Positions 38,927-46,198 are shown, counted from the first letter of the stretch. The stretch is 64,000 nt of DNA from Polyangiaceae bacterium (GCA_025937835.1 JAICQO010000025.1:1-64000); one strand, 5' to 3'. Program-made: numbers and translations. Notes: generated by a model not told the origin, from the letters alone.

Positions 38927-41900
38927 TCACGGCGGTAACGGCGCTGGCTCGACCGACTCCGGCTCGCCCCTGGAAGCGCGCCGCCCCGTGACGATCACCT
39001 CTTCGGTTCCGTCGGCGTTCACTTGCCGGACGAGGCGATACGTCGTGTTCCCGCCGTTGCGCGCGACCTCCGGTGCGGCGATCAACAGCTGGAGCTCGAG
39101 CTGCTTGCAGAGGTCGAACAACACTCCCAGGTTGTCTTGCGACAGGCGGTTCGCCTCGTCGAGGAACAGGAAGCGCAGCGTCCCGCTCGTGCGGCGATTG
39201 CGGAACAGGCTCGCGTCCCTCTCCCACTCCGTGAGCACGACCATCATCAGCGCGGCGCCCACGCCAATCGCCTCGCCCGTGGACAGCCGAGTCGGGCTCA
39301 CGCGCTCGAACCCGGACTTGGCGCGGCGCTCCACCTCGACCTCGAGCTCCAGGTACTCGCGGTAGTCGAGCAGGCGCTGCCCGCCGCTCTTGCCGCCGCC
39401 GTAACGGCGGAAGATCTCGTCCAGGGCTTCTTCGACGGGTAGCGCGGCCTGAAACAACAGCTCCTGCGCGGCCCCTTCGCGGATCGCCTTCAGGATCTGA
39501 TCCATGCGCTCGATGCGCCGGAGCTGCACGCGGATCGCTGCCACGCTGCCGAACGAGATGCCCTCGAGGTGTTGGTTGAGTCGCCGCACCTGGGCCGCGG
39601 CCCGGCGCAGCTTGACCTCGATGCCGCGCGCCACGTCTTCCGAGGCTCCGCGGAGATCGAGCTCCTGGCGTAGCAAGCGCTCGTCGAGCAGCGCCAGGTG
39701 ATCGCGCAGGCGCTCGAGAGCCTCGAGGGGATCGGGCACCTCGGCGATCTGCGACGGCAAGCGCCGCGCCAGCCACTCGCGCACGTCCTTCCAGGCCGCG
39801 ACCTGTATCGGCGCCAGATCGCCCGCGGCGGAGAAGCGCTGATTGAGCTCGTTGCCGAGCGATTGACCGCCGCGCGCGCGCAGTAGACGGTCGCAAAGCA
39901 CCTCGCCGCGGCTCCTGGCCTCCGAGCGAAGCTCGCGTCCGCTCGGCTCGCCGCGGCGGATCAAGAAGCTCGGGTCGAGGTTTCGGAGCAAGCCCGTGCC
40001 CTCGACTTCGGAAAGCAGCTGCCGGCGCCGTCGCTCGAGCGGCTCGATCGCGGCCTCTTCGGCCTCGCGAGCGCGGGTGCGCTCCGCCAACGCCGATTCG
40101 GCCTGACGCTTGCGCTCACGCAGCGAGCCGAGCTCTTCGGCGATACGGCTCGCATCCGCCTCGCTGCTCTCGGCGCGCTCTGCCTCGCGTTCGACGTCGA
40201 CGGCGGCCGCCGCCAGCGCCTCGGGACTGAACTCGGGCGCCAGGCGCGCGAGCTCCGCCTGAGCGAGCTCGGCGTGCGCGGCGATCGCACCGCGACGCGC
40301 GTCCAGCTCCTGAAATCGGCTGGCCCGTGCCTGCCACGTCGCTTCGGCGAGCACGAGCTCGGCGTCCGCGCTCGCGACCTGCGCAGTCAGTGATTCGAGC
40401 TCGGATTCGAGCGCCGGCACGAGCCGCGTCCCCTCGTCCAGCGCGGCCTCGGCTTCCGTGTATTGCCGCGCAGCGCGGGTTTCGATGGCCGCTTCCAGCG
40501 CCTCGATCCCGCGGAAACGACGATCGCGCTCGGCGTCGAGCTCCGCGCGCTCCCGGGCGAAGCGCTCGAGCTCGTCCGGCGGCGGCGGGGGCACGCGCAG
40601 GGCCTCCGCCCACTCGCCGAGCGTCTTCTGCGCGGATTTGGTGCGCGCGAGCTCGGCCTCTGCAGCGCGCGCCTCGGCGACTTCGCGCTCGAGCTCGGCC
40701 GCGCTCGGGCCATCGACGGCGCTCAGGTGGTGTAGCTCGGCGAGCAAGGGCCGCAGCGCTTCGAGCTGCTTCCTGAGCTCGCCGGCCTGCGACAACTGAG
40801 CGAGGCTGTCACTGCTATGGGTGGAGGCCAGGCTCTGCGCGCTCAGGATCCGCGCTTCGAGCTCGTCGGCCGCGCCTCGCGGGTCGGGGCCGAATACGAG
40901 CTCGGAGTCACGCAGCAGCTCTTCGACCGAAGCGAGCTGCGCGTCCATTCGCCGCAGCTCGGAGCTGGTGCGCTCGAGCTCGAGCTCGACGTGCTCCGCC
41001 TCGGCGAGCAACGCGCGCCGCCGCGCCTCCCGCGCCGTGCGGCCGAGATTCGGGCGCTCCGGGATCCGACTCACCCGCACCCCCACCTCCGTGGAGACCG
41101 TCAGCAAGCGCTCACCGACGAGCTGGCCTTCGCCAGCCGGAATTTCGTGCCCCGCACGCACCAGCAGCAGCTCGTCGAGGCGCGCGTCGGAGTCTTGCAA
41201 CTTGGCGAGCGCATCCGTCAGATCTTCGACCACGATCGCCTGTGCGAGCGGGCCGAGCTCCGCCTGCAGGCGCGCAGCTCGGTCGGCCTCGACGTCCTCG
41301 TAGCGGGTCGCGAACAGCTCCCCTCCGAGCTCTTCACACAGCTCGAGCAGCCGCGGATCGAAGGTCCCGCCCTCGCGCTCGAAGCGCGTGGCTTCGGCGA
41401 GCAGGGCCTCGCGCCGAGAGCGCTCCGAGAAGGCGCGCGAGCGCAGTATCTCGCGCTCCGCGAGCAGCCGATCTTTGGCGGCGCGAAGCTCGTCCTCGGT
41501 CGCGGGGATGCCGCCGAGCAGCGCGGCCAGGCGCTCCGCGGAGGTCTTGCCGCGTTGAAAGCGTTGAGACTTGGCCCGCGCTTCCGCCAGGCGCTCGCCG
41601 AGCCGCATCGTCTGCTCCTCGAGCGCTCGGCGGGACGCGGCGAGATCGCGCGCCTGTTCCTCGGCCCGATAGAGCTGCTCGGTGAGCCGAGCCACCGTGC
41701 GCTCGACCTCTCGCGCGAGCTCGGGGTGTGCCGGATCGATGCCCGCCGCCTCGATCCGCGCGCGGACTTCGAGCGCGCGCTCCGTGTCGCGCTCGACGCG
41801 GGCGAGCTCCGAGGCGAGCGCTCGAAGCTGCCGGGCGCGCGGGCGGAGCTCCGAGAGACGGCCGAGCTCGCGGCGAGCCAGCGTGTATCGATCGTCGTCC

Positions 41901-43351
41901 GGCGCGAGCACCACGATCGCAGCGAGCGCCGCCTCTGCCCGCGCGTAGTCGTCGCGCCGCTGCTTTTCGGAGGTGAGCTCGCGCTCTCTCCGGGCGCGCT
42001 CGGCGTCGAGCCGTGCGAGCTCCTCGCGCACTCGTCCGAGCGTCGGCTCGAGGCCTTCCTCGGCGAGCTCCGGGAGCGAGAGCAAGCCGCGCGCCTCGGC
42101 GAGCGCCGCGTGCCCGCGCCGGAACGCGTGGGCGCGGCGGTGCAGCTCTTCGAGCCCGCTCTGCAGGTTCGCCAGGCCCCGCGCGGCCTTGTCGTAGGTT
42201 TCACGCGCGCGGCCGAGCTCGCGCTTCGCGTTCTCTCGCGCCTCTTCCGCGCGCTCGAGCTCGAGCCTGGCAGCGGCGGCGTCGGCCTGCGCCGGGTAAA
42301 GCTCGGCGGCCAGCACCTCGCAGCGCCGCGAGAGCTCCGCGGCGCGCTCGAGCGTCTCGCGGCGGGCCTTCTCGGCGTCGAGCCGGGCGCGCGTCTCGGC
42401 CACGCGGGCACGCGCCGCGGCCTCGCGCGTGGCGCCGTCGGCGAGGGCGGCTTCTGCCTCGGCGAGCGCGAAGCGAGCGCCGTTCTCCTGCGAGCGCGCG
42501 GCTTCGGTGCTGCGCGCTGCTTCGTCGACCTCGGCCTGAAGCGCGGCGAGGGCTGCGCCGAACATGCTCGCGCCTGCCTCGTACACGCCGCTGATCTCGC
42601 GCTCCAGCGCGCGCGCCTCCTGCACCTCCGTGCGCGTGCGCCGGCAGGCGTCGAGGTTGGCACGCATCCTGGACAGCGTGTCCGACAGCCCGCTCTCTTC
42701 CCGCAACAGAAAGGTCCGGAGCTCGCTGGTCAGCGCGCGCGAGATGCCGCCCGTCATGCTGGTGCGCAGCATCTCGTTGAACTTCGCGCGCTCGTCCTCG
42801 TTGGCAAGGCGCAGCGGCACGATCCCGCGCTCGAACAGGGCCGTGAAGTAGTCGCGCACGCTCTCGAAGGCTTCGATGCGCGCGCCGAGCTCGACCGCGC
42901 GCGCCTTGAGCTCGGAGAGCTCCGGCACGCGCTGCTTCTCGCCGTCCGGCACCAGGAGCAACGCCGACAGGCCGTGCACGGGGGAGAGGCCGTGCACCAT
43001 CAGCGCGCTGAGCTGAACGCTCGGCTCGGCCTTGCGCTCGAGCTGAACGCACAGAACCACGCGCTCCCCTTCGAGCTCGAGCTCGAGCGCCGCGTAGGAA
43101 GGGCCGCCCTCGGCGCCGAGACGGCCGTAAATGCCGCGGTCGCCGCCGGTTGCCGCGGTCTCTCCCAGGTTGGTGAAGCGCAGCCGCGCGAGATCGGGCA
43201 GCAGCACCAGATACGCGGCGATCATCACCGTGGTCTTGCCGGCGCCGTTCGCCCCCTCGAGCGCCGTCACCTGCTGATCCAGCAGGTAGCGTTCGAAGAA
43301 CACTCCCTTCCAGTTCACGAGGGCGAGCGTCGTCGCCCGCGCTCGGCTCAT
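38927..43351 (-). CDS. mukB: MukB-type SMC condensin subunit
   Basis: 1474 residues, close to the 1486 of E. coli MukB. The N-terminal head begins ATTLALVNWKGVFFERYLLD and has Walker A GANGAGKTT at 33-41, then LPDLARLRFTNLGETAATGG. Two long Glu/Arg/Ala-rich coiled coils flank a hinge near residues 665-760 (PLAQAIVVEDL, then FPNL-like RIPERPNLGRTARE). The C-terminal head has LLDYREYLELEVEVERR, the signature LSTGEAIGVGAALMMVV near residue 1355, Walker B LRFLFLDEANRL near 1395 and LLIAAPEVARNGGNTTYRLVRQV. These match MukB rather than the SMC or MksB patterns. It should load onto DNA as a dimer with MukE and MukF to organise the chromosome. Its ATG overlaps the mukE stop (ATGA). Confidence 0.94.
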   Translation of the reverse strand: MSRARATTLALVNWKGVFFERYLLDQQVTALEGANGAGKTTVMIAAYLVLLPDLARLRFTNLGETAATGGDRGIYGRLGAEGGPSYAALELELEGERVVLCVQLERKAEPSVQLSALMVHGLSPVHGLSALLLVPDGEKQRVPELSELKARAVELGARIEAFESVRDYFTALFERGIVPLRLANEDERAKFNEMLRTSMTGGISRALTSELRTFLLREESGLSDTLSRMRANLDACRRTRTEVQEARALEREISGVYEAGASMFGAALAALQAEVDEAARSTEAARSQENGARFALAEAEAALADGATREAAARARVAETRARLDAEKARRETLERAAELSRRCEVLAAELYPAQADAAAARLELERAEEARENAKRELGRARETYDKAARGLANLQSGLEELHRRAHAFRRGHAALAEARGLLSLPELAEEGLEPTLGRVREELARLDAERARRERELTSEKQRRDDYARAEAALAAIVVLAPDDDRYTLARRELGRLSELRPRARQLRALASELARVERDTERALEVRARIEAAGIDPAHPELAREVERTVARLTEQLYRAEEQARDLAASRRALEEQTMRLGERLAEARAKSQRFQRGKTSAERLAALLGGIPATEDELRAAKDRLLAEREILRSRAFSERSRREALLAEATRFEREGGTFDPRLLELCEELGGELFATRYEDVEADRAARLQAELGPLAQAIVVEDLTDALAKLQDSDARLDELLLVRAGHEIPAGEGQLVGERLLTVSTEVGVRVSRIPERPNLGRTAREARRRALLAEAEHVELELERTSSELRRMDAQLASVEELLRDSELVFGPDPRGAADELEARILSAQSLASTHSSDSLAQLSQAGELRKQLEALRPLLAELHHLSAVDGPSAAELEREVAEARAAEAELARTKSAQKTLGEWAEALRVPPPPPDELERFARERAELDAERDRRFRGIEALEAAIETRAARQYTEAEAALDEGTRLVPALESELESLTAQVASADAELVLAEATWQARASRFQELDARRGAIAAHAELAQAELARLAPEFSPEALAAAAVDVEREAERAESSEADASRIAEELGSLRERKRQAESALAERTRAREAEEAAIEPLERRRRQLLSEVEGTGLLRNLDPSFLIRRGEPSGRELRSEARSRGEVLCDRLLRARGGQSLGNELNQRFSAAGDLAPIQVAAWKDVREWLARRLPSQIAEVPDPLEALERLRDHLALLDERLLRQELDLRGASEDVARGIEVKLRRAAAQVRRLNQHLEGISFGSVAAIRVQLRRIERMDQILKAIREGAAQELLFQAALPVEEALDEIFRRYGGGKSGGQRLLDYREYLELEVEVERRAKSGFERVSPTRLSTGEAIGVGAALMMVVLTEWERDASLFRNRRTSGTLRFLFLDEANRLSQDNLGVLFDLCKQLELQLLIAAPEVARNGGNTTYRLVRQVNADGTEEVIVTGRRASRGEPESVEPAPLPP

Positions 43352-44142
43352 TCAGGCTGCTCCACCGGCTTCGACACGTCCTCGAAGCCGAAGTCCTCGA
43401 GCAGCTCGGGATCGAGCTCGGGCTCGGTTCCGGGATCGCCCTCGGGGTCCAGGGCGGAATCCTCGTCGAGCTCGGGCGCGCTCTCGTCTTCTTCGCTGGC
43501 TTCGGGGACGGAGTCGAGCGGGGTGAGCGACAGCTCGCCGCTCGCGACCAGCCGCTCCAGCGCCTCCGTCGAATCTGCCGACGAACGCACCGGCTCCGCG
43601 AAGCGCAGCAGCGCCGGCCGGAGCTTGAGCTCTTCGGCGCCGATCGCGTCGACGAAGCCCAGCGCCGCGAGCCGTCGCAAGGCGTCCGCCACGCGCGAGC
43701 GCACGGTTTCCTGAGCCACGCGTTCGTCGTAGCGGCGGCGCTTGGGGTTCAGCGCGCGCACCAGCGCGTCCGTCCCCATCACCGTGGCGAGGTGGCCGAG
43801 CACCTGCTCGCGCGTGACCCGCCCGCCCTGCTCCAGCGTCGCAGGATCGAGGTACAAGAGCGTCAGCGCCTGCCCGACCAGCATCTCCGCGATCCCGAGC
43901 TGCCGCTTGGCGAGCCGGTCGCCGGTCGGGAGCAAGTAGTAAAAACCGTCGCTCCGGTAGACGAGGTCCGCGCCGAAACGCTTGTAAAACGGCTCGAGGA
44001 CGTCGGCCGCGTCCGACAAGAACCCGAACCACGCGACGTCGTCCCGGTCGATGTGCCGGCCTCGCCGCAAGGCCAGATCCACGTCCGGGAAATGCTCGTC
44101 CTGCACCGCGTCCCCGAGCGTCACGAACTTCGTCGCCGTCAT
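43348..44142 (-). CDS. mukE: Condensin subunit MukE
   Basis: 264 residues; E. coli MukE is about 230. Clear correspondences are HFPDVDLALRRGRHIDRDD, FLSDAADVLEPFYKRFGADL, GFYYLLPTGDRLAKRQLGIAEMLVGQALTLLYLDP and VRSRVADALRRLAALGFVD, which follow the E. coli order. The C-terminal 70 residues form an acidic, Glu/Asp/Pro-rich tail that is longer than in E. coli. ATG 44142 overlaps the mukF stop. MukE binds MukF and modulates the MukB ATPase. Confidence 0.93.
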   Translation of the reverse strand: MTATKFVTLGDAVQDEHFPDVDLALRRGRHIDRDDVAWFGFLSDAADVLEPFYKRFGADLVYRSDGFYYLLPTGDRLAKRQLGIAEMLVGQALTLLYLDPATLEQGGRVTREQVLGHLATVMGTDALVRALNPKRRRYDERVAQETVRSRVADALRRLAALGFVDAIGAEELKLRPALLRFAEPVRSSADSTEALERLVASGELSLTPLDSVPEASEEDESAPELDEDSALDPEGDPGTEPELDPELLEDFGFEDVSKPVEQPE

Positions 44143-45455
44143 GATCCGCTCGCGCTCCGCTCCACCGACCACTCTTCGATCCAGATCCCTTCGTCGGCCG
44201 GCGCCCAGTCACGCTCGCGCGCGCTTCGGGCGCGAGCGACCTTGGTCACCACCTCCGCCACGCGCCCGGCAGCCACGTAGCGCTCCTCGAGCGGCAGCTG
44301 TTCGACCACGGCTCGCGTGACCGCGGACAGCGACCGCGCGCCGCCGTCGACCGCGGCCTCTACCTGTCCCGTGAGCTCGCGATCGCGATCTCCGGTGACG
44401 GCGTCATCGAGCGGTTTTTCTCGCTCTTTCTTGGGCTTTTCGAGCGGCGGACGCTGGTTTGGCACCACCACCTCGCGCGGCACGGCGAGCGGCGGCTGCC
44501 AGGCGACCACCAGCGAGAACGACCGCCCCGAGCGCCCGCTGAGCTGCGCGCGCAGCCGCTCCGTCAGCGCGCGCGTCGGGTCGAGCCGCACCACGTCCCG
44601 CAGGTAGCGATGAACGTACTGGTAGTACTCGGACCAGGCGCGCTGCCGCGCCGCTCCCCAGGCCGCGCTGCGGTCGAGCTGCTCCGAGAGCCGGTGGCAG
44701 GCTTCGTCTACGTCCGCGGCTCCGCGGACCTCGGCGAGATCCCGGATGTCCTCGAGCAGCGCCGTGAGACCGTGAGTGTCGCGCAGCAGCACCTCGTTCA
44801 GCTCGCGCAGCGTGCGCGTGGTGGTCTCGAGCAGGTCCTGGCAGCGCGCGAGCGCGTCGAACCAGTCGCTGGCAAGCAGGCCCCCGATTTCCTGTTGGAG
44901 CCGCTCTTGTTGTAGATCCAGGCCGCGCTGCCGCCGCTCGATGCCGTCCACCAGATCGCGGATCGTGACCCTCAGCGGGCCCGCCACGCGTGCGGAGACC
45001 TCCTCGGCCGTCACCGCGCCGCGCGCCTGGTCACGAAGCTCGGAGAGCCCGGTGTGCAGCGTGCGCAGGAGCAGCGTCAGGCTGTCGCCGGTGAGCGCCT
45101 CCTCCTCGAGGTAGAAGTCGACGATGCCGGTCGCGAGCCGCGTCAGCGCGTAGGAGCCGCTGCGCACCACGCCCACGCCGTCGACGCGCGAGAGCAAGCG
45201 CTGATCTCGCAGGCGCTGGATCGCGGCCGTCGCGCGCCGGGCGATCCCCGCCGCGTCGGGTCGAACCAGCGCGCACACGTCACGAAACACCTCACCGAGC
45301 TCGGCCTCCGAGAACGACACCAGCCCACCGGCCCGTGATCGCAGCCGCAACGCTGCCACGAAGCACAGATCGATCGGCGAGAGCTCGAGCGATGCCTTGC
45401 GAGCCGCGAGGTTCTCGATCAGGCGCTTCGGCTCTTCTTCGGCAGCAACGGTCAC
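44139..45455 (-). CDS. mukF: Kleisin condensin subunit MukF
   Basis: 438 residues; E. coli MukF has 440. The N-terminal winged-helix region has the opening SLELSPIDLCFVAALRLR and a basic RATAAIQRLRDQRLL. It is followed by a helical middle region rich in Leu/Glu and a C-terminal winged-helix-like part after a Pro/Lys linker (RPPLEKPKKEREKPL). GTG start 45455. As kleisin it should bridge the MukB heads. It is the first gene of mukF-mukE-mukB and is the most diverged of the three, so identity rests mainly on length, order and partner genes. Confidence 0.85.
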   Translation of the reverse strand: MTVAAEEEPKRLIENLAARKASLELSPIDLCFVAALRLRSRAGGLVSFSEAELGEVFRDVCALVRPDAAGIARRATAAIQRLRDQRLLSRVDGVGVVRSGSYALTRLATGIVDFYLEEEALTGDSLTLLLRTLHTGLSELRDQARGAVTAEEVSARVAGPLRVTIRDLVDGIERRQRGLDLQQERLQQEIGGLLASDWFDALARCQDLLETTTRTLRELNEVLLRDTHGLTALLEDIRDLAEVRGAADVDEACHRLSEQLDRSAAWGAARQRAWSEYYQYVHRYLRDVVRLDPTRALTERLRAQLSGRSGRSFSLVVAWQPPLAVPREVVVPNQRPPLEKPKKEREKPLDDAVTGDRDRELTGQVEAAVDGGARSLSAVTRAVVEQLPLEERYVAAGRVAEVVTKVARARSARERDWAPADEGIWIEEWSVERSASGS

Positions 45456-45583: not shown

Positions 45584-46135
45584 CTAGCGGGTTCGCGGTG
45601 CCCGGCTCGCCAGGCACTGCAACACCGCGCGCGTTCGGGCCTCGGGGCTGCCCTCGACGACCAACGGCTCGAGGCCGAGCTCGTGCGGGTCTTCGAGCAG
45701 CAGCTCCTCGAGCTCTGCGTGGACGAGGGCCCGCGATTCGTCCTCGTCGTCCGCTCTCGAAAAGCGGATCCGATCGCGGCCCTCGATCGGGACGAACACC
45801 ACGAGGTCGAGCCGTTGCAGGGCCTCGCGCAGAGCGGGCAGAAAGTCCTCGAGCTCGAACGCATCCGCTTGCTCGTGGCACGCGAGGTAAGCGAGAAAGT
45901 CCACGGGGCAGCGCTCGAAGAGCACGTCCTCGCCTGCCTCGTTCAGGTCCGAGATCGAGCGCTCGAGCTGGGCGACGAAGTCCTCGACGGTCGGCGGGTG
46001 CGAGAACTCGTGGCCCTCCTCCTCCAGCGACGAGTAGGGCTCGTCCACGACCTCGTAGCCCGGCAGCCGCTCGGAGAGTGCCTCGAGCAGCGTGGATTTG
46101 CCGGTTCGGTGGCTGCCTGAAATCGCAATCCGCAT
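45584..46135 (-). CDS. Small P-loop ATPase, NadR/Ttd14-like
   Basis: 183 residues. The N-terminus RIAISGSHRTGKSTLLEAL is a P-loop, with EDVLFERCPVDFLAYL typical of AAA_28 (NadR/Ttd14-like) kinase-type ATPases and a likely Walker B/lid region near DLVVFVPIEGRDRIRF. ATG 46135 precedes the P-loop directly. The protein may phosphorylate a small molecule. It precedes mukF by 128 bases on the same strand; a functional link is possible but unproven. Confidence 0.8.
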   Translation of the reverse strand: MRIAISGSHRTGKSTLLEALSERLPGYEVVDEPYSSLEEEGHEFSHPPTVEDFVAQLERSISDLNEAGEDVLFERCPVDFLAYLACHEQADAFELEDFLPALREALQRLDLVVFVPIEGRDRIRFSRADDEDESRALVHAELEELLLEDPHELGLEPLVVEGSPEARTRAVLQCLASRAPRTR

Positions 46136-46198
46136 GGCTTCGGCGAGCTCGCTGCGCACGATTCTCGCTCGCTCGGCAGCCCCGCGGGTGGAAAAAGT

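Follow-up and report, generated by a model that had tools for sequence, protein, structure and literature searches.

The window analyzed here is a 64,000-nt stretch of DNA from a Polyangiaceae bacterium (GCA_025937835.1 JAICQO010000025.1:1-64000), and all coordinates refer to its full length. Reading of its open reading frames places a mukF-mukE-mukB operon on the minus strand at 45455-38927 (38927-45455 on the plus-strand count), encoding the three subunits of a MukBEF condensin (Table 1). The genes stand in the E. coli order and overlap by 4 nt at two ATGA junctions (mukF/mukE at 44139-44142, mukE/mukB at 43348-43351), as an earlier note on this DNA, made from the sequence alone, had described. 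Its reading of MukB also held in an alignment with E. coli MukB, in which the ATP-binding, signature and catalytic motifs of the 1474-residue protein are all intact. Likewise, MukE does carry a longer acidic tail, with 60 residues beyond the conserved core compared with 24 in E. coli.

Table 1. Features of the mukFEB operon and its flanks, in window coordinates
Feature	Position	Strand	Basis or remark
mukF, kleisin, 438 aa	44139-45455	minus	GTG start; Pfam MukF_M 79.5 bits and KicB 51 bits, both above cut-off
mukE, KITE subunit, 264 aa	43348-44142	minus	ATG start at 44142; Pfam MukE 112 bits, above cut-off
mukB, SMC-type ATPase, 1474 aa	38927-43351	minus	NCBIfam MukB equivalog; full-length alignment to solved MukB
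MukB Walker A, GANGAGKTT, residues 33-41	43229-43255	minus	Alignment including E. coli MukB
MukB_hinge domain, residues 644-796	40964-41422	minus	Pfam 107 bits; genome scan 110 bits at the same place
MukB ABC signature, LSTGEAIG, residues 1356-1363	39263-39286	minus	STGEAIG invariant in alignment including E. coli
MukB Walker B and catalytic Glu, LFLDEA, residues 1395-1400	39152-39169	minus	Invariant in alignment
MukE acidic C-terminal tail, ~60 aa	43351-43530	minus	Past conserved core; 23 D/E against 1 K/R
Gene downstream of mukB, 122 aa	38408-38776	minus	Signal-peptide-like start; no Pfam match
Gene for AAA_28 P-loop protein	45584-46159	minus	128 nt upstream of mukF; Pfam AAA_28 53 bits

The Pfam gathering cut-offs are exceeded by the MukB N-terminal domain (4e-68), MukB_hinge (1e-30), MukE (2e-32), MukF_M (3e-22) and KicB (2e-13). 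A single F-E-B operon thus brings together the N-terminal and hinge domains of MukB, PF04288 in MukE, and PF17192 with PF03882 in MukF, the set by which the MukBEF family is recognized. Window MukB also reaches the NCBIfam MukB equivalog (863 bits, cut-off 699), whereas MukE (117 of 250 bits) and MukF (290 of 407 bits, matching over residues 7-433 to a model of 440 positions) stay below theirs, as expected for a divergent branch. Therefore, the operon is a member of the MukBEF family and not an enterobacterial equivalog. In phmmer searches, residues 3-1459 of window MukB aligned to residues 4-1466 of a solved MukB (E=5e-90), and MukE (2e-29) and MukF (4e-33) also matched solved structures. Chance can be dismissed as the source of these matches and of the features in Table 1.

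It is near certain that this is a genuine MukBEF operon. That an MksBEF or Wadjet JetABC system was misread, or that the contig contaminates its metagenome-assembled genome (MAG), is very improbable, even though the PADLOC JetC1 model gives a weak match (51 bits) and Pfam MksE also matches window MukE. The other Jet matches are weaker still (JetB1 16 bits, on MukF; JetC3 7 bits), so that the Jet models point to a related group with no convincing match, and the MksE equivalog is far from reached (23 of 400 bits). Pseudomonas MksBEF resembles the window system in being a nuclease-less SMC complex beside SMC-ScpAB, but its MksB, as in the separate MksBEF locus (L190) of Pseudomonas lini CC269, has only ~950 aa. 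Contamination is contradicted by the presence of MukB in all seven congener genomes and by an operon G+C of 0.70-0.73, near the window's 0.68. These identities are ruled out by the equivalog scores, the congeners and a tree of the ATPase heads.

A JetD/MksG-type nuclease in sister operons

A scan of ~85,000 species yielded 71 loci of the window's MukB branch, mostly from Myxococcota. The others come, with MAG hosts labelled as deposited, from Phycisphaerales and other Planctomycetota, Acidobacteriota, Binatota, Hydrogenedentota, a Hyphomonadaceae MAG and Pseudomonadota such as Pseudomonas lini, Stutzerimonas stutzeri and Thioalkalivibrio. The mukF-E-B order is constant wherever the contig is long enough, and the best tblastn segments of complete loci are mostly 37-46% identical to window MukB. 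No MukB relative of this branch was found in viral_contigs; one short fragment with 38% identity lies on an E. coli phage record.

In 29 of the 71 loci, a fourth gene of ~320-350 codons directly follows mukB on the same strand. Its product matches Pfam JetD_C at 29-40 bits (cut-off 22) and has the invariant Toprim residues E198 and D242xD244 in the alignment. An AlphaFold model (predicted local distance difference test score, pLDDT, 84; predicted template-modelling score, pTM, 0.58) was matched by Foldseek to MksG (8b7f, 5e-8) and JetD (7til, 2e-6) with TM-scores of 0.4-0.5; topoisomerase VI A was also among the best solved matches. Searching PDB sequences with a JetD profile gave no match; these relatives came from the fold comparison. 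The JetD_C domain, the Toprim glutamate with the DxD pair, and the MksG/JetD fold identify the gene as a JetD/MksG-type nuclease, jetD. The best PADLOC JetD models reach 25-42 bits, and the MukF of P. lini (L048) matches no Jet model at all. JetD and MukB distances are strongly correlated (rho 0.90, 0 of 2000 permutations), so both travel together.

The window operon lacks this gene. The 122-aa gene downstream of mukB, at the position that jetD has in the sister operons, is a different gene, and no match to JetD was obtained in the window genome, its seven congeners, or three other genomes (G009, G016 and G045). No conserved partner gene takes its place in the nuclease-less clade. In two further nuclease-less loci, L070 and L071, the neighbouring genes were read and no overlooked jetD was found. 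Both kinds of operon occur in Myxococcales bacterium 68-20 (L057 has jetD, L061 lacks it), which also has SMC; therefore, the nuclease-less form is not merely a decayed copy.

The surroundings of the two kinds of operon also differ. Neighbours were picked by a simple gene-calling rule, and the families named are those among the matches listed. Those of the JetD-bearing operons include GajA, LmuA, LmuB, AbiEi (three proteins) and AbiEii; Gabija GajA adjoins operon L049, Lamassu LmuB adjoins L047, and PDC-S06 and an integrase adjoin L052. On the 880-kb megaplasmid pBPJTT of Burkholderia pyrrocinia (L205, NZ_CP091309.1 65492-93862), a MukFEB-JetD operon in which mukB and jetD share a one-base overlap lies by CBASS-type genes, IS21 and a gene for a WYL regulator; the record lists the operon's products as chromosome partition proteins, one hypothetical protein and one DUF2220 protein. 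In P. lini CC269 (L048:5966-13402), the only match to the MukB hinge family in the genome is at the MukFEB-JetD locus, where mukF, mukE and jetD have a third-position G+C of 0.57 compared with ~0.7-0.8 in most flanking genes, which points to recent acquisition. For nuclease-less operons, including the window's, 103 neighbours were examined, and the matches listed are kinases, RtcR-like regulators and one DpdJ. Ser/Thr protein kinase genes flank several of these operons (L043, L098, L095 and L100); since myxobacteria are rich in kinases, this is probably background. Upstream of the window operon, the AAA_28 gene is possibly co-transcribed with it, and the operon flanks differ between the window and most congeners.

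Host genomes, descent and selection

The window is a contig (C60) of a 6.92-Mb MAG that is 95.8% complete. Searches found SMC (1011 bits), ScpA and ScpB in this same genome, which answers in the affirmative the earlier note's question of whether SMC-ScpAB coexists with MukBEF; SMC is present in 21/21 genomes tested, most of which have MukB. E. coli MukBEF is limited in the terminus region by MatP. The suggested search for matP found no match in the window genome, with a positive control in E. coli. The host is myxobacterium-like as supposed, the loci of the congeners being from Polyangiaceae or Myxococcales MAGs. MukB occurs in 8/8 genomes of the genus (in two of them just as fragments on short contigs) and in a few other genera of the same family. 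Across the phylum its hinge is patchy, with 14 of 379 sampled Myxococcota genomes in eight families, so that the operon is not a general feature of Myxococcota and the wide vertical inheritance that would have made it one was not seen.

The note had also asked whether the system was transferred, with gammaproteobacteria as the best-known bearers of MukBEF. A recent horizontal import of enterobacterial MukBEF could explain a complete mukFEB in E. coli gene order, but it is hardly credible. Window MukB is only 26% identical to that of E. coli, MukE and MukF miss their equivalog cut-offs, and gammaproteobacterial MukB forms its own fully supported clade, with window MukB in a separate deep branch. 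The combined tree of MukB, MukF and MukE, rooted on twelve gammaproteobacterial MukB (MukF is absent for some rows), refutes such an import. The operon is universal in the genus, and vertical descent is not rejected. Within the genus, the identities of window MukB to its congeners (44-68%) do not follow those of SMC (66-68%) in all pairs. This hinted at exchange of MukB, but the data do not reject a clade of the genus (p=0.59), and we therefore do not claim transfer within it. In one congener (G001, L199:9907-12099), the mukB frame continues across a single in-frame TGA close to a contig end, with decay and assembly error not told apart.

In the gammaproteobacteria-rooted tree, 19 nuclease-less Myxococcota rows, including the window, form one clade, confined to that phylum, with a support of 100. 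This clade is sister to an 18-row JetD-bearing clade and is nested among further JetD-bearing branches. Placing it outside every JetD-bearing clade lowers the log-likelihood by 24 units, with p=0.048 in the approximately unbiased test (LG+G4). Loss of jetD in the window lineage is thus favoured by the tree but not proven, because the alternative is rejected at this level only. L070 and L071 lie apart from the main nuclease-less clade (a single clade is rejected, p=7e-43) and apparently represent an independent loss of jetD. Elsewhere in the branch, L184 and L111 make up a long-branched JetD-bearing MukB lineage, the former in a Myxococcota genome and the latter in a MAG labelled Pseudomonadota.

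The three genes are under strong purifying selection. In two congener pairs, the ratio of nonsynonymous to synonymous substitution rates is ~0.09 and 0.24 for MukB, 0.04 and 0.11 for MukE, and 0.04 and 0.14 for MukF. In several genus pairs, MukB diverges faster than SMC. The MukE tail has a median of 68.5 aa in nuclease-less rows compared with 21 aa in JetD-bearing relatives (p=3e-7). However, the tails of L070 and L071 are short (23 and 20 aa) although both loci lack jetD, which rules out a tie to nuclease loss as such. Therefore, the long tail marks the clade.

A proposed path from nuclease-bearing operon to condensin

In MukBEF, MukF bridges the MukB dimer and MukE is part of the assembly, which binds ATP, takes hold of DNA and is believed to extrude it as loops; in Wadjet, JetD is triggered to cut a circular DNA once its extrusion is complete (PMC7617805, PMC10586767, PMC12647877). 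We consider it probable, at about two in three, that the window operon encodes an accessory loop-extruding chromosome condensin descended from a Wadjet-like defence system of the MukFEB-JetD kind whose nuclease was lost. The sister MukFEB-JetD systems have the same machine coupled to a Toprim nuclease and most likely act as a Wadjet-like defence against extrachromosomal DNA, restricting plasmids or similar circles. In the window lineage, the presumably ancestral jetD would have been lost, so that the motor was kept and the cut was gone, most likely leaving an accessory condensin. This complex, predicted to consist of a MukB ATPase dimer with its hinge, the MukF kleisin and a MukE KITE dimer, would load on DNA and extrude loops by ATP hydrolysis beside SMC-ScpAB, thereby folding the chromosome.

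Among known systems, enterobacterial MukBEF (E. coli, Photorhabdus thracensis) shares with the window the overlapping mukF-E-B order, a MukB of ~1480 aa with the same N-terminal and hinge domains, the MukE and MukF domains, and the lack of JetD. It replaces SMC-ScpAB, whereas the window system coexists with it, stands on a separate branch, has a longer acidic MukE tail and lacks a MatP match in its genome. The MukFEB-JetD operons of Sorangium cellulosum So ce26, P. lini CC269, B. pyrrocinia pBPJTT, Phycisphaerales and others share the MukF-E-B architecture, but they include the nuclease gene and are often found in defence islands, both of which the window lacks. Wadjet types I-III (JetABCD/MksBEFG) are likewise SMC-kleisin-KITE machines, belonging to the same group, and MukFEB-JetD also has its Toprim nuclease last. 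They differ from the window in that their PADLOC JetC models match its MukB weakly and that JetD is absent from its operon and genome.

Several points weigh against a nuclease-derived condensin. The hosts already have SMC-ScpAB, so that a second condensin is not obviously needed, and the MatP partner known from E. coli was not detected. With the MAG 95.8% complete, a missing gene such as jetD may sit in a gap, although the seven congeners agree. The contrast in defence neighbours is plain as to the kinds of gene, but its numbers are approximate because of the simple gene-calling rule. Finally, the root is marginal, given the p value of the forced tree under LG+G4, and when ATPase heads are compared with MksB/JetC outgroups the branches reach 4-10 changes per site, leaving the root of that tree unusable. 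This uncertainty bears on the possibility that nuclease-less MukBEF is ancestral both in the branch and in gammaproteobacteria, and that one sub-lineage later recruited JetD for defence. Rooting the branch between the nuclease-less clade and all other rows is barely rejected, and the heads-only tree with its distant outgroups puts nuclease-less rows near the root. We nevertheless regard this order of events as unlikely. In the full-length tree the clade falls within JetD-bearing branches, at support values of up to 100, and the separate position of L070 and L071 suggests that nuclease loss recurs. In addition, the Wadjet/MksBEFG group has the four-gene order F-E-B-nuclease, which the JetD-bearing operons share.

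Alternatively, the nuclease-less complex may still serve in defence, by capturing, compacting or silencing incoming circular DNA or by passing it to an unlinked host nuclease. Eukaryotic Smc5/6, which silences extrachromosomal DNA, offers an analogy. The resemblance of the sister operons to defence systems, the unconserved flanks between the window and most congeners, the patchy spread in the phylum and the faster divergence of MukB than SMC are all in keeping with this role. It is, however, an improbable one for a gene set that is found throughout the genus and is strongly constrained, has few defence genes beside it and has acquired no conserved partner in place of jetD.

The branch extends what has been reported for MukBEF. 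A 2023 review confines MukBEF to enterobacteria and their relatives and leaves open, as speculation, an origin from Wadjet-like defence (PMC10586767). In a 2025 paper with a phylogeny of the Wadjet group, MukBEF falls within that group, without MksG/JetD (PMC7617805), and some MukFEB-JetD operons may be listed in its Data S1. Three Wadjet types were still counted in late 2025 (PMC12647877), and our literature search found no paper naming both MukBEF and myxobacteria. What is new is a MukBEF branch outside the enterobacterial group, with and without JetD, and its main interest lies in the MukFEB-JetD operons and the nuclease-less clade nested among them. JetD and the defence islands of the sister operons, which the earlier note had missed, change what the window operon most probably is.

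MukFEB-JetD is a candidate for a nuclease-bearing MukBEF defence system, which the PADLOC models applied here match only weakly and public records describe as chromosome partition proteins. At somewhat short of even odds, MukBEF condensins may have arisen at least twice from one such Wadjet-like system by nuclease loss. One loss would have led towards enterobacterial MukBEF, which took over from SMC, and another, in Myxococcota, to the window complex, which would work beside SMC-ScpAB and whose acidic MukE tail became longer. In that case, the MukFEB-JetD operons that survive would be an unrecognized fourth kind of Wadjet. Since the branch occurs with and without JetD, and in Myxococcales 68-20 even in both forms within one genome, the question of whether a defence system can become a condensin can be tested here.

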